A DNA stretch of 22,310 nt from a virus. Location of the stretch: IMG/VR virus record IMGVR_UViG_3300039186_000243, positions 1-22,310 of that record; one strand, given 5' to 3'. The notes under the pieces are model-generated. The model saw only the letters and a program-made list of their open reading frames with translations, made no database searches and was not told the origin of the DNA. Positions within the stretch are counted from its first letter, which is position 1, and each line of letters begins with the position of its first letter. Shown here one piece after another: positions 17,323-21,846 of this stretch. The translations under genes were made by a program, and so were the position numbers.

Positions 17323-18129
17323 ATGAAGAAAAATATAGTTTGGTTTGATCTTGAGACCACAGGAATAAGTACAACATCAGATCGTATCATTGAGATATGT
17401 ATGATCAAGACTGATTTAGACGGTAACGAAATTGAATCTTATCGATCATTAGTTAATCCAGGCATAACAGAGATGAGACCTGAAGCACAAGATAAGCATG
17501 GTATATCTATTGAAGATTTATCTGATCAACCATCTTTTGAATCCATAGCATCTGAAATAAATGATTTTATTGGCGATTGTGACCTAGGTGGTTATAATGC
17601 ATTATATTTTGATGTACCATTCTTATGCGAGGAATTTATGAGATGCGGTATAGCATTCAATCATAGGAGCCGAGCAGTATTAGATCCTTTCCTTATTTAC
17701 AGTAATTACGAAAAGAGAGATTTAACCAATACTTACAAAAAGTATACAGGTAAAGATTTAGAGGGTGCACATAGAGCTGAAGCAGATGTAAGAGCTACTA
17801 TGGAGATATTCCAAGTTCAACGAGAATTATATTCAATGGCAGCAACAGCTGAAGAAATTGATAAAGAAGTAAATACTCGTAGAGCTGATCAAGTTGATTT
17901 AGGAGGCAAGTTAAAATTTGCTGAGGTTGATGAAAAAAGAACCATCGTGTTTAATTTTGGTAAACATAAAGGAATTCCATTCAAGACTGTATATGCAAAT
18001 GATGCTAGGTATTTAACATGGATAATTGAAAAGGGTGAGTTTTCACAAGAGCTTAAAATAATTTGTAAAAAACTAATAGAAAAGTTTAAACAAGAACAAG
18101 AAAATAAAAATATAGAATTACCATATTAA
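17323..18129 (+). CDS. DEDDh 3'-5' exonuclease, DnaQ/ExoX-like
   Basis: A 268-aa exonuclease. The five active-site residues of the DEDDh class are visible: D9 and E11 in FDLETTG, D97 in ALYFDVPFL, H150 and D155 in AHRAEADV. After the catalytic domain (1-170) and a linker, residues about 211-242 (FNFGKHKG ... YLTWIIEKG) match the small C-terminal domain found in exonuclease X and related proteins. It is not obviously the T4 DexA protein. Possible roles are proofreading in trans, DNA repair, or degradation of host DNA. It has its own late-promoter-like motif and no close neighbour of related function. Confidence 0.85.
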   Translation: MKKNIVWFDLETTGISTTSDRIIEICMIKTDLDGNEIESYRSLVNPGITEMRPEAQDKHGISIEDLSDQPSFESIASEINDFIGDCDLGGYNALYFDVPFLCEEFMRCGIAFNHRSRAVLDPFLIYSNYEKRDLTNTYKKYTGKDLEGAHRAEADVRATMEIFQVQRELYSMAATAEEIDKEVNTRRADQVDLGGKLKFAEVDEKRTIVFNFGKHKGIPFKTVYANDARYLTWIIEKGEFSQELKIICKKLIEKFKQEQENKNIELPY

Positions 18130-18191: not shown

Positions 18192-18521
18192 ATGAATAGA
18201 TTCCAACACGCTAATTTATCTTCGATGATATCTTTTCACGGCCACGAAGTAACAGCTTCTAAACAAGACTTAGAAAAAGTATGCGGGAAAGTAATGTACA
18301 GCGACAACGACATTAATGAAAAAACACAAAACGAATGGGAAATGCAATCTGAAGATGGTACACCATTCACAATATATGATTATAAAGAATATCGTGAATA
18401 TGATATAGCAGAAAAAATTGTATGGCATATTGGTGCAGAGAATAGATTTGGTGCAAAGAAAGGTTATGAAGAATTAGCCAGGTCATTTCATCTACATCCA
18501 AAAATTGATTATAATATATAA
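18192..18521 (+). CDS. Small unknown protein, 109 aa, with a WHIG motif
   Basis: A 109-aa soluble protein with the blocks FTIYDYKEY (about 58-66) and IVWHIGAENRFG (about 76-87). Short phage proteins with a similar pattern (a TIYDxK block followed by WHIGG) occur in many tailed phages as conserved proteins of unknown role; I recall the pattern but cannot confirm a family. The start has an A-rich leader without Shine-Dalgarno. Its stop codon overlaps a TATATAAA motif that precedes the tmRNA. Function unknown. Confidence 0.7.
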   Translation: MNRFQHANLSSMISFHGHEVTASKQDLEKVCGKVMYSDNDINEKTQNEWEMQSEDGTPFTIYDYKEYREYDIAEKIVWHIGAENRFGAKKGYEELARSFHLHPKIDYNI

Positions 18522-18546: not shown

Positions 18547-18897
18547 GGGGGCGTTTTTGGCTTTTGACAATCTGATTGAAATAAAAACTACAGCACCGGG
18601 TGATGACCTACATCAACATGTTAAGTGGAAACGCTGAACTTGCAATGGCAGCCTAGTAACTAGGTCCAATGCACACCATGTTACTTAGTATACTTGTACG
18701 TGAATAAGGTGTAAAAGGAAGTAATATGGGTTTTTGAATTGTACCCTAAACAATTCTCTCAACAGTGCTTTTTGATACATGTGGCCATGAGTAACATAAT
18801 CTATTTTTGGAAGTTTTTAGAAAACTTATACTAAGCTGTAAGAAATGTTTTTAGGGAAACTTATTGGACGTGGGTTCGAATCCCACCGCCTCCACCA
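18547..18897 (+). ncRNA. ssrA: Transfer-messenger RNA (tmRNA), one-piece, phage-encoded
   Basis: A complete tmRNA of 351 nt. The 5' end GGGGGCG pairs with CGCCTCC at the 3' end to give a 7-bp acceptor stem with a G3-U70 wobble, the alanine identity signal, followed by A and an encoded CCA. The T arm is GTGGG-TTCGAAT-CCCAC, and the stretch GGACGTGGGTTC before it is almost the same as in E. coli tmRNA. The 5' part has the conserved TTTTTGGCTTTTGACA. The tag reading frame starts at the resume codon GGA (18627) and reads GNAELAMAA, then TAG TAA (18654-18659). The stops lie in a hairpin (18641-18673), as in known tmRNAs. It would rescue stalled ribosomes and tag proteins for degradation, with SmpB from the host. 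Confidence 0.95.
18627..18656 (+). other. tmRNA tag peptide frame, GNAELAMAA
   Basis: The resume codon GGA follows TTAAGT, in the same place as the GCA resume codon after ATAGTC in E. coli. The tag is 9 aa and ends AMAA instead of the common ALAA; TAG is followed directly by an in-frame TAA. The hydrophobic-Ala-Ala end should still be recognised by ClpXP, but residues 2-6 differ from typical bacterial tags. Confidence 0.85.
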
Positions 18898-18904
18898 TTA
18901 CATA

Positions 18905-18978
18905 GGGGAATTAGCTCAGTTGGCTAGAGCGCCTGCCTTGCACGCAGGAGGTCATCGGTTCGACTCCGATATTCTCCA
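18905..18978 (+). tRNA. tRNA-Ala, anticodon TGC
   Basis: A full cloverleaf: acceptor GGGGAAT/ATTCTCC with a G3-U70 wobble, D arm GCTC/GAGC, anticodon arm CCTGC-CTTGCAC-GCAGG with anticodon TGC, and T arm ATCGG-TTCGACT-CCGAT. The discriminator is A. The 3' CCA is not encoded (the sequence continues CAAAA), so it must be added by a nucleotidyltransferase. It starts 7 nt after the tmRNA and is probably cut from the same transcript. It reads GCA, the alanine codon seen very often in the tape measure and other late genes. Confidence 0.97.
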
Positions 18979-18992
18979 CAAAACAACAACAT

Positions 18993-19205
18993 ATGATATT
19001 TACATCTGACCTTAGAGAAGATTACCAATTTGTGAAACGTGCAATTGAGCATACTGATAATAAACTTGTGCATTACCCATCGCTTAAAAATCTTATTACA
19101 ATTTTTGCATCAAAATGGAAAGACAAAATATCAACAGCAGAGAATTCTGCATATCAGTTTTCATTACATTCACTAAAGTTATTGTTGAAAAGATCGTTTA
19201 GGTAA
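18993..19205 (+). CDS. Small unknown protein, 70 aa
   Basis: An ORF of 70 codons starting 14 nt after the tRNA. The product is basic, helical-looking, with FTSDLREDYQFVKRA at the start and a Leu/Lys-rich C-terminus. There is no motif I recognise. The A-rich leader and the codon pattern are like those of neighbouring genes, which supports a real gene. It ends shortly before the promoter-like motif of the methyltransferase gene. Confidence 0.5.
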   Translation: MIFTSDLREDYQFVKRAIEHTDNKLVHYPSLKNLITIFASKWKDKISTAENSAYQFSLHSLKLLLKRSFR

Positions 19206-19971: not shown

Positions 19972-21846
19972 ATGGCAATAAACATTGAAAAGAAGTATCA
20001 AAAATTAACAGATACCGAGCATGTACTATTGAGACCAGGTATGTACGTAGGATCAATTAAGCCTCATACTGAAGAAGTGTTTTTACCAACAAAAGGTAAG
20101 GATCAATTTCAACTTACCGAAGTAACATACAATCCAGGCTTTCTTAAACTCTTTGATGAAATAGTTTCTAATTCTGTTGATGAACATAAGAGAAATGCTA
20201 AACTTGATAAAGTTAAAGTCGATATAGACATGTCGACCGGTTTAATTTCAATTTGGGATAATGGAGGAATACCTGTAAAGATTCATAAAGAGTATGATGA
20301 GTGGGTACCTGAAATGATATTTTCAAATTTAAAGGCTGGTAGTAATTTTGATGATACTGAAGATAGAGTAGTAGTTGGGACTAATGGTGTAGGTAGTACA
20401 TTAACAAATATATTTAGTAAAGAATTTATAATTGAAACCTGTGATGGTAAAAAACAATTTGTGCAGACTTTTAAAAATAATATGTCTGAGCGAACTAAAG
20501 CCAAAATAACAAATAAGAAAACTGCATATACTAAAATAACATATCTTACTGATTTTGAAAGATTTGGTTTAAAGGGTATCGACAAGAATCATTACTTAAT
20601 GATAACTAAAAGACTTATTGATATTGCAGCATGTAATCCTACTCTTAAAATATCGTTAAACAATAAACCTATTGAGTTTAGGACATTTAAAGACTATGCA
20701 AGTCGCTATGTAACTCCAGTATTTTATGATCAATCAGAACATTGGAAAATTGGAATAGGTCATTCAACGACAGGCTTCAAAGCAATATCATTTGTAAATT
20801 CAGTAGAAACTAAAGATGGCGGTACTCATGTTAATAATATAGACTGGCAAATTACATCTTATCTTAGAGAAAAAATTAAAAAGAAGTACAGGGTTGATGT
20901 AAAACCTTCTGAATTAAGACAACATTTATATTTGTTTATTAACTGTACTGTTATTAATCCATCTTTCTCATCACAAACAAAGGAAAAGTTAATTACACCA
21001 CCTAAAGATTTTGGTACAAGTCATGTATTAAGTGAAAAGGTTTTAAAACAAATTCTAAATTCTGAAATCATACAATCTGTTTTGGATTGGATCCAACGAA
21101 AGGATGAGGCAGATGAAAGAGCAAAGCTTAGGAAATTAAATAAAGGATTAGATAAAACTAAAGTACTTAAATTAATTGATGCAAAGAAACGAGGTGATAG
21201 AGAAAAATGTACACTTGCAATATTTGAGGGTGATTCTGCATCTTCTGCATTTAGGAGGTATAGAGAACCACAATATCAAGGAGCATTCCCATTAAGAGGT
21301 AAATTCATTAATGTTAGAGAATTGGCTGCATCTAAAGTTGTACAGAATAAAGAGGTACAATCGATGATGGCTGCTATGGGTTTAAAGATAGGACATGAAC
21401 CTAAAGACTTAAGGTATGGTAAAATACTCTTATACACCGATGCGGATGTAGACGGTAATTCTATTGCTGCATTATTAATTAACTTTTTAGGTAAATATTG
21501 GCCAGAGTTATTTACTGAAGGTAGGATCTTGAAAGTAGAAACACCACTTATGGTTGCCAAGAAAGGTAAAGAATCTTTAAACTTTTATTCTGATGACGAT
21601 TATAAAATATGGGAAGCTAAACAAAAGAACCTAAATAGTTGGTCAATTGAATACAAGAAAGGACTTGCTGCATTAGAAGACGCAGAGTATAAGGAGATCA
21701 TCAGAAGCCCGAGAACATTCACTCTCACGAAGGATAGTGGATTTAACAATACACTAGATATTTGGTTCTCTAAAGACTCAACACCACGTAAACATAAGAT
21801 ACTAGGTGAGGACATAATAATCAAAAATGACAAATCATTATTTTAA
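19972..21846 (+). CDS. 39: DNA topoisomerase II large subunit, gp39-like (ATPase + TOPRIM)
   Basis: The ATPase and TOPRIM part of a type IIA topoisomerase. In the N-terminal GHKL fold the ATP-binding motifs are FDEIVSNSVDE (about 62-72), DNGGIPV (96-102) and GTNGVGSTLTNIF (about 136-148). The TOPRIM metal-binding residues are in FEGDSA (about 418-423) and DADVDG (about 489-494). At 624 aa it covers what T4 splits into gp39 (516 aa) and gp60; here the TOPRIM domain is not interrupted. The stop is directly followed by the start of the gp52-like gene, so the two subunits are translated in tandem. It would remove supercoils ahead of replication forks, perhaps also helping origin initiation. Confidence 0.95.
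   Translation: MAINIEKKYQKLTDTEHVLLRPGMYVGSIKPHTEEVFLPTKGKDQFQLTEVTYNPGFLKLFDEIVSNSVDEHKRNAKLDKVKVDIDMSTGLISIWDNGGIPVKIHKEYDEWVPEMIFSNLKAGSNFDDTEDRVVVGTNGVGSTLTNIFSKEFIIETCDGKKQFVQTFKNNMSERTKAKITNKKTAYTKITYLTDFERFGLKGIDKNHYLMITKRLIDIAACNPTLKISLNNKPIEFRTFKDYASRYVTPVFYDQSEHWKIGIGHSTTGFKAISFVNSVETKDGGTHVNNIDWQITSYLREKIKKKYRVDVKPSELRQHLYLFINCTVINPSFSSQTKEKLITPPKDFGTSHVLSEKVLKQILNSEIIQSVLDWIQRKDEADERAKLRKLNKGLDKTKVLKLIDAKKRGDREKCTLAIFEGDSASSAFRRYREPQYQGAFPLRGKFINVRELAASKVVQNKEVQSMMAAMGLKIGHEPKDLRYGKILLYTDADVDGNSIAALLINFLGKYWPELFTEGRILKVETPLMVAKKGKESLNFYSDDDYKIWEAKQKNLNSWSIEYKKGLAALEDAEYKEIIRSPRTFTLTKDSGFNNTLDIWFSKDSTPRKHKILGEDIIIKNDKSLF

Follow-up and report, generated by a model that had tools for sequence, protein, structure and literature searches.

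tmRNA genes are known from a range of phages and were found in 402 of 18,146 phage genomes (Buchholz et al., PMC9004378). The same work describes Melnitz, a marine T4-like methylophage that carries its own two-piece tmRNA (PMC9004378). A 2014 tmRNA survey includes Bxz1 and further mycobacteriophages as well as Bacillus phage G (PMC4131195; see also PMC9583779 for phage-borne tmRNA of this kind in cluster C mycobacteriophages and phage G). Huge phages with both tmRNA and SmpB have been reported (Al-Shayeb et al., 2020, PMC7162821), and one tmRNA is present in Mar_Mega_1 (PMC9723777). A preliminary description of the locus examined here called a phage tmRNA unusual; such genes are indeed uncommon, but they are already known in phages (PMC9004378, PMC4131195, PMC7162821), and our locus adds a further case. 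The new element is constancy across an entire phage group, whose members carry the tmRNA at one place and with a conserved degradation tag of their own.

The stretch of DNA that we analyzed, here called the window, is an entire virus record of 22,310 bases, a linear fragment. ARAGORN found a single tmRNA in it, and the Rfam model RF00023 matched the same 351 bases over its full length (1-374 of 374; E 2.8e-31), well above the curated cut-off of 47 bits (Table 1). Both programs place the gene at exactly 18547-18897 on the plus strand, and ARAGORN gives the tag GNAELAMAA, in full agreement with the complete tmRNA that had been proposed. The acceptor stem with its G3-U70 pair, the T arm, the resume codon, the tag, and the stop codons in a hairpin can each be read in the sequence, the tag frame running from the resume codon to a hydrophobic-Ala-Ala end with its stops inside P5. 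The G3-U70 pair is the alanine identity element, and the G-U is invariant in 16 relatives. The encoded CCA was also correctly noted for the window, but in many relatives CCA is not encoded.

With bacterial one-piece tmRNAs (RF00023), the window tmRNA shares the G3-U70 stem, T arm, tag frame, P2, P5, and pseudoknots; it differs in being carried by a phage and in having a tag that was not seen in sampled bacteria apart from a look-alike in one spirochaete. Melnitz resembles the window phage in being T4-like with its own ssrA, but its tmRNA is two-piece, permuted, and under a glutamine riboswitch, whereas that of the window is one-piece and Rfam matched no riboswitch in the window. Bxz1 and its cluster C kin, together with Bacillus phage G, also have phage-borne tmRNA, but these phages are unrelated to ours.

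Table 1. Positions of the tmRNA gene, its structural parts, and the phage genes discussed in the text, numbered along the window.
Feature	Position	Strand	Basis
Large terminase, used for phage tree	6509..8323	+	PHROG 5989
DnaQ-like exonuclease, conserved left neighbor	17323..18129	+	PHROG 192; synteny
Small ORF directly upstream of tmRNA, conserved in the close clade of the window	18192..18521	+	Synteny; no PHROG match
tmRNA gene (ssrA), one-piece, 351 nt	18547..18897	+	ARAGORN; RF00023, 83.3 bits
Acceptor stem P1, 5' strand GGGGGCG; third pair G-U	18547..18553	+	Sequence
P2, 5' strand TAAAAAC TACAG	18582..18593	+	Double compensatory changes in 4/7 P2b pairs, from L098
Pseudoknot PK1, GGGU GAUG ACCU A CAUCA (GGGU/ACCU, UGAUG/CAUCA)	18598..18615	+	143/144 cells paired, 16 relatives
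Tag frame, resume codon GGA at 18627, peptide GNAELAMAA	18627..18653	+	ARAGORN; relatives
P5 hairpin surrounding the end of the tag and the stops	18642..18672	+	One double change in L098; segment fold
Stop codons TAG TAA, inside hairpin CCTAG-TAA-CTAGG	18654..18659	+	Sequence
Pseudoknot PK2, CACC/GGTG; loop TACTT with AAGTA	18674..18723	+	One double change per helix
Pseudoknot PK3, H-type, GGGT/ACCC; GAATTGT/ACAATTC	18728..18756	+	Fold; L099 vs L103 covariation
Hairpin AAGTTTT...AAAACTT at the place of PK4	18811..18827	+	Fold; PK4 laid out as hairpin alone
P2, 3' strand CTGTA-AGAAAT-GTTTTTA	18836..18853	+	Pair count among relatives
T stem-loop GTGGG TTCGAAT CCCAC	18870..18886	+	Sequence; invariant in 16 unique relatives
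P1, 3' strand CGCCTCC (18887-18893), A73, encoded CCA (18895-18897)	18887..18897	+	Sequence
tRNA-Ala (TGC), 3' of tmRNA	18905..18979	+	ARAGORN
Small ORF, conserved right neighbor	18993..19205	+	Synteny
Topoisomerase II large subunit, conserved right neighbor	19972..21846	+	PHROG 543; synteny

PHROG matches in the window comprise a gp44-like clamp loader, an exonuclease, GroES, the large terminase, a tail sheath, a tail tube, a homing-endonuclease-like protein, a DnaQ-like exonuclease, and two topoisomerase II subunits. A gp17-type terminase, a contractile tail, a gp44-type clamp loader, and a T4-type topoisomerase are thus all present, and the attribution to a T4-like phage stands. The description of the surroundings as a late region needs correcting: replication and structural genes are mixed in the window, which is not purely late. 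The terminase shares 50% identity with its counterpart in LR756500, a 462-kb uncultured phage and the nearest named relative, and 36-39% with those in LR756502, LR745206, and LR756504 (635-642 kb); among cultured phages the nearest matches, at 35%, come from Sphingomonas phage PAU and from Tenacibaculum phages.

Shine-Dalgarno-like 4-mers precede none of 15 genes in the window and 3 of 143 genes in a 181-kb relative, a count not above that in shuffled sequence, as would suit a host in which such motifs play no part. As Bacteroidota largely do without Shine-Dalgarno motifs, we infer that the host may belong to this phylum. Leaders of the window genes and of G012 (L262-L271) are very A-rich, with no Shine-Dalgarno-like motifs before the starts.

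Relatives were retrieved from IMG/VR with two sequence patterns, one matching the tag and the other the tmRNA 3' end. Pairs in P1, the T stem, P2a-c, PK1, P5, and PK2 were scored in 16 unique relatives, with strands located by motif; standard pairs fill 809 of the 816 cells laid out, for helices chosen by eye after viewing the same alignment. Double compensatory changes occur at eight pairs, of which four lie in P2b, two in PK2, and one each in P1 and P5. The change in P1 is at pair 6, C-G in the window and U-A in most relatives, and those in P2b and P5 all come from one sequence, L098, where the P5 change (GCA/UGC to GCG/CGC) is synonymous in an Ala codon of the tag. PK1 and the T stem are nearly invariant in the 16 relatives, and PK1 is without covariation. 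The window and the L099/L103 group both have a PK3 of the H type, with a double change that sets GTAATGT/ACATTAC in L099 against GCAATGT/ACATTGC in L103. The pseudoknots, whose lack had been named as evidence against a tmRNA, are in place: PK1 to PK3 can be laid out, and PK2 and PK3 covary among relatives. A chance fold is ruled out by the full-length RF00023 match and the pair counts in relatives.

The segment from PK3 to PK4 (18728-18829 in the window) is modular. L137, L097, L129, and L119 have a different sequence in place of PK3, and the segment there reads as a module exchanged between close phages with flanks unchanged; L137 resembles the window closely on either side of the segment from PK3 onward but differs within it.

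Homologues of the tmRNA found with the 3'-end pattern occupy one locus in 26 other viral contigs. As far as each contig extends, the gene order is dnaQ, small ORF, tmRNA, small ORF, topoisomerase; one small ORF is unmatched in a few contigs (L128, and L280 of a more distant group), and the left side of the locus is not visible in L282. Since the same flanking genes recur in 26 other contigs, a host/phage chimera, the other circumstance that had been named as fatal to the claim, is excluded, as is host contamination. A general tmRNA 3'-end pattern gave at least 120 matches in IMG/VR, many of them confirmed as tmRNA by ARAGORN, although some of these loci possibly represent prophage junctions or stretches of host DNA. 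When the window tmRNA region was compared with named phages by blastn, matches were mostly to tRNA.

In a terminase tree comprising 18 tmRNA-positive rows and 10 rows whose visible interval is free of tmRNA, presence and absence need only one change. The gene is therefore inherited vertically with the phage, with a single loss or displacement from this locus. In the tmRNA-free sister subclade the interval is occupied by a run of small ORFs, and no GTTCRA (T arm) motif occurs in any of nine intervals; a hidden divergent tmRNA there is ruled out on both counts. Along L284-L293, these small ORFs between dnaQ and topoA, where relatives have the tmRNA, are conserved. Absence from the locus in a sister subclade suggests that the gene is non-essential for such phages, or that it lies elsewhere in the subclade that lacks it here.

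That absence, and the variable tRNA content of the adjoining slot (18905..18979; Ala, Gly plus Ala, or Thr among relatives and none in L137), would suit a tmRNA that is a passenger, a captured host gene without function. However, the compensatory changes in the fold and the exclusively synonymous change in AMAA indicate selection on the window tmRNA, and we regard a functionless passenger as highly improbable. While diverging, this group of uncultured T4-like phages has retained a ribosome-rescue RNA of its own at a single locus, with compensatory changes in the fold and a conserved tag.

As had been observed, there is no smpB in the window, and none was found in close relatives either. PF01668 (SmpB) had no match in LR756500, in 28 fragments of related viruses, or in two more close-clade fragments, G073 and G074, and a search for weak matches in five of the larger records gave nothing even at E 10; these include LR756500 and the 181-kb relative, for which a divergent SmpB is thereby rejected. 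The searches covered close-clade fragments, the largest of 181 kb, and one 462-kb relative, so that a gene elsewhere in the genome is possible. With no SmpB gene in close relatives, host SmpB is the simplest assumption, and it is probably what the window phage uses. LR756500 has a tmRNA too, about 100 kb from its terminase and again with no SmpB match.

Unlike LR756500, the phages LR745206, LR756504, and LR756502 (L116, L117, and L118; about 640 kb) encode clear SmpB (PF01668). LR756502 and LR745206 have no tmRNA above the RF00023 cut-off, and a permuted tmRNA was rejected, as RF01850 gave nothing convincing; the partner RNA of their SmpB may be divergent or that of the host. In LR756504, 279007-282363 (L087) holds an RF00023 match of 65 bits that ARAGORN missed, with a tag read as DNVNSFEQSILNELFAPVEMAVAA.

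Taken together, we consider it likely that the window encodes a functional phage-borne one-piece tmRNA that would perform trans-translation with host SmpB and host proteases. If expressed, the RNA would receive alanine from the host's charging enzyme via the G3-U70 pair, would bind host SmpB, and would enter ribosomes stuck on broken mRNA, adding the tag A-GNAELAMAA to the unfinished protein and freeing the ribosome. A ClpXP-like protease of the host would then receive the tagged protein and read its hydrophobic-Ala-Ala end. mRNA cut by phage or host defence would be the source of ribosomes to rescue, and the likely benefit would be that ribosomes are kept working while host transcription is shut down. 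A ribosome-rescue role fits what can be read from the gene. In Escherichia coli, propagation of the hybrid phage lambda imm-P22 drops about 10,000-fold without tmRNA or SmpB (PMC2862035), and in T4 infection host tmRNA stays abundant while host tRNAs are degraded (PMC9697503).

Two other roles can be considered for the RNA. A decoy that binds SmpB and inhibits host trans-translation has been discussed for the RNA of mycobacteriophage DS6A, which is barely more than the tRNA-like domain (PMC4131195), but the window's group has kept the conserved tag frame, stops, P5, and pseudoknots, all needless for a decoy, so that this role seems extremely improbable. A sensor of ribosome stalling that times lysis has been named as a role for huge-phage tmRNAs (PMC7162821). 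For the window we think it highly improbable, as no regulatory target is visible, replication genes adjoin the locus, and no lysis gene is recognized in the window.

The tag is GNAELAMAA in the window and L137, DNAELAMAA in most relatives, DNAEFAMAA in L132, DNAEYAMAA in L097 (where the ARAGORN call is wrong), GNTELAMAA in L098, and, read by eye, GNTQLAMAA in L281; LR756500 has GNNAEMRMAA. Counted from the end, position five holds L, F, or Y in the close group, and the final AMAA is invariant while its codons vary (GCA/GCG, GCA/GCT); synonymous variation is also seen 5' of AMAA (GAA/GAG, CTT/TTA). Because AMAA is constant despite synonymous codon changes, the peptide appears to be under selection.

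Across 84,980 bacterial and archaeal species, one genome per species, the exact pattern NAE[LF]AMAA was found in one contig only, from a Sediminispirochaeta MAG, with the tag ADNNNAEFAMAA. This tag is a look-alike on a tmRNA body that is GC-rich and differs from that of the window, and the ORF directly upstream reads, by eye, like smpB. The window tag thus does not seem to be copied from any sampled bacterial tag of the exact NAE[LF]AMAA form, although the host may be unsampled. The proposal that the phage chose its own tag gains indirect support from conservation in the clade and near absence from sampled bacteria, with the same proviso about the host.

In its stronger form, the proposal holds that the phage RNA outcompetes host tmRNA and that the phage tag sends proteins to a different fate, such as another protease or slower or faster degradation. 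Beyond the conservation of the tag in the clade and the near absence of NAE[LF]AMAA from the bacteria scanned (a single spirochaete), this draws on a sister lineage, G040-43, whose tmRNA at this locus has a wholly unlike tag of 24 residues; tags of that type are preserved at the protein level in many viral contigs. However, A-M-A-A is an ordinary kind of degron end, and the bacterial scan was for exact NAE[LF]AMAA alone. Replacement of the host tag is therefore conceivable but rather doubtful, and rescue with ordinary proteolysis remains our preferred reading. Whether a freed ribosome is enough for phages or their own tag is needed too becomes a testable question, with a short tag, a long tag, and absence at one locus in sister lineages as a ready natural comparison.

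The long tag is more surprising than the window tmRNA itself and deserves a separate study. The sister lineage G040-G043, whose terminase is 84% identical, has a tmRNA at the locus of the window with the tag GEEKSSFTWEDAMAFIGADYAVAA, and the body of this tmRNA shares 61-72% identity with six further tmRNAs of the long-tag type and 60-65% with the window family. Tags of about 24 residues, ELSTxTFEDAM[AS]FVGADYAVAA, occur in many viral tmRNAs including those of this lineage. More broadly, the family (L093 of G040, L189, L234, and L297-L414) reads roughly as [VED][EN][LK]S[TS]x[TN]FEDAM[AS]F[VI]GA[DE]YAVAA. The pattern FEDAM[AS]F returned from IMG/VR at least about 50 distinct tag strings, in at least 60 dereplicated sequences, and Rfam confirmed a tmRNA at 16 of the 17 loci checked, the exception being L315, a pattern match not among the tag carriers.

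Variability is concentrated at third codon positions, both before the searched motif (0.52-0.67 bits at positions 1 and 2 versus 1.09 at position 3) and after it (0.57 versus 1.39 bits). All 60 dereplicated sequences among the matches listed have a serine four codons ahead of the motif. The interior of the long tag is thus constrained at the protein level, which suggests that it recruits a specific partner, beyond the action of a generic degron. Tentatively, tags of phage tmRNAs might be phage-owned signals under peptide selection and not copies of host tags, although we would not put this above a possibility. The long tag had no tblastn match in named phages and no match in the PDB. Among the records searched, a few that carry the long-tag pattern or tag also carry SmpB (G051, G070).

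Two further observations concern these viral tmRNAs. The tags ANAQIEANMNKVFSLLREEVAVAA and GNTKENTQVQANMSKVYSLISSVEEVAVAA (L236, L243) look related to each other and are maybe a second long-tag family. A GOLLD RNA (L234, 4293-4702; L345, 7898-8381) lies within a few kilobases of both a large tRNA array and a tmRNA with the long tag.
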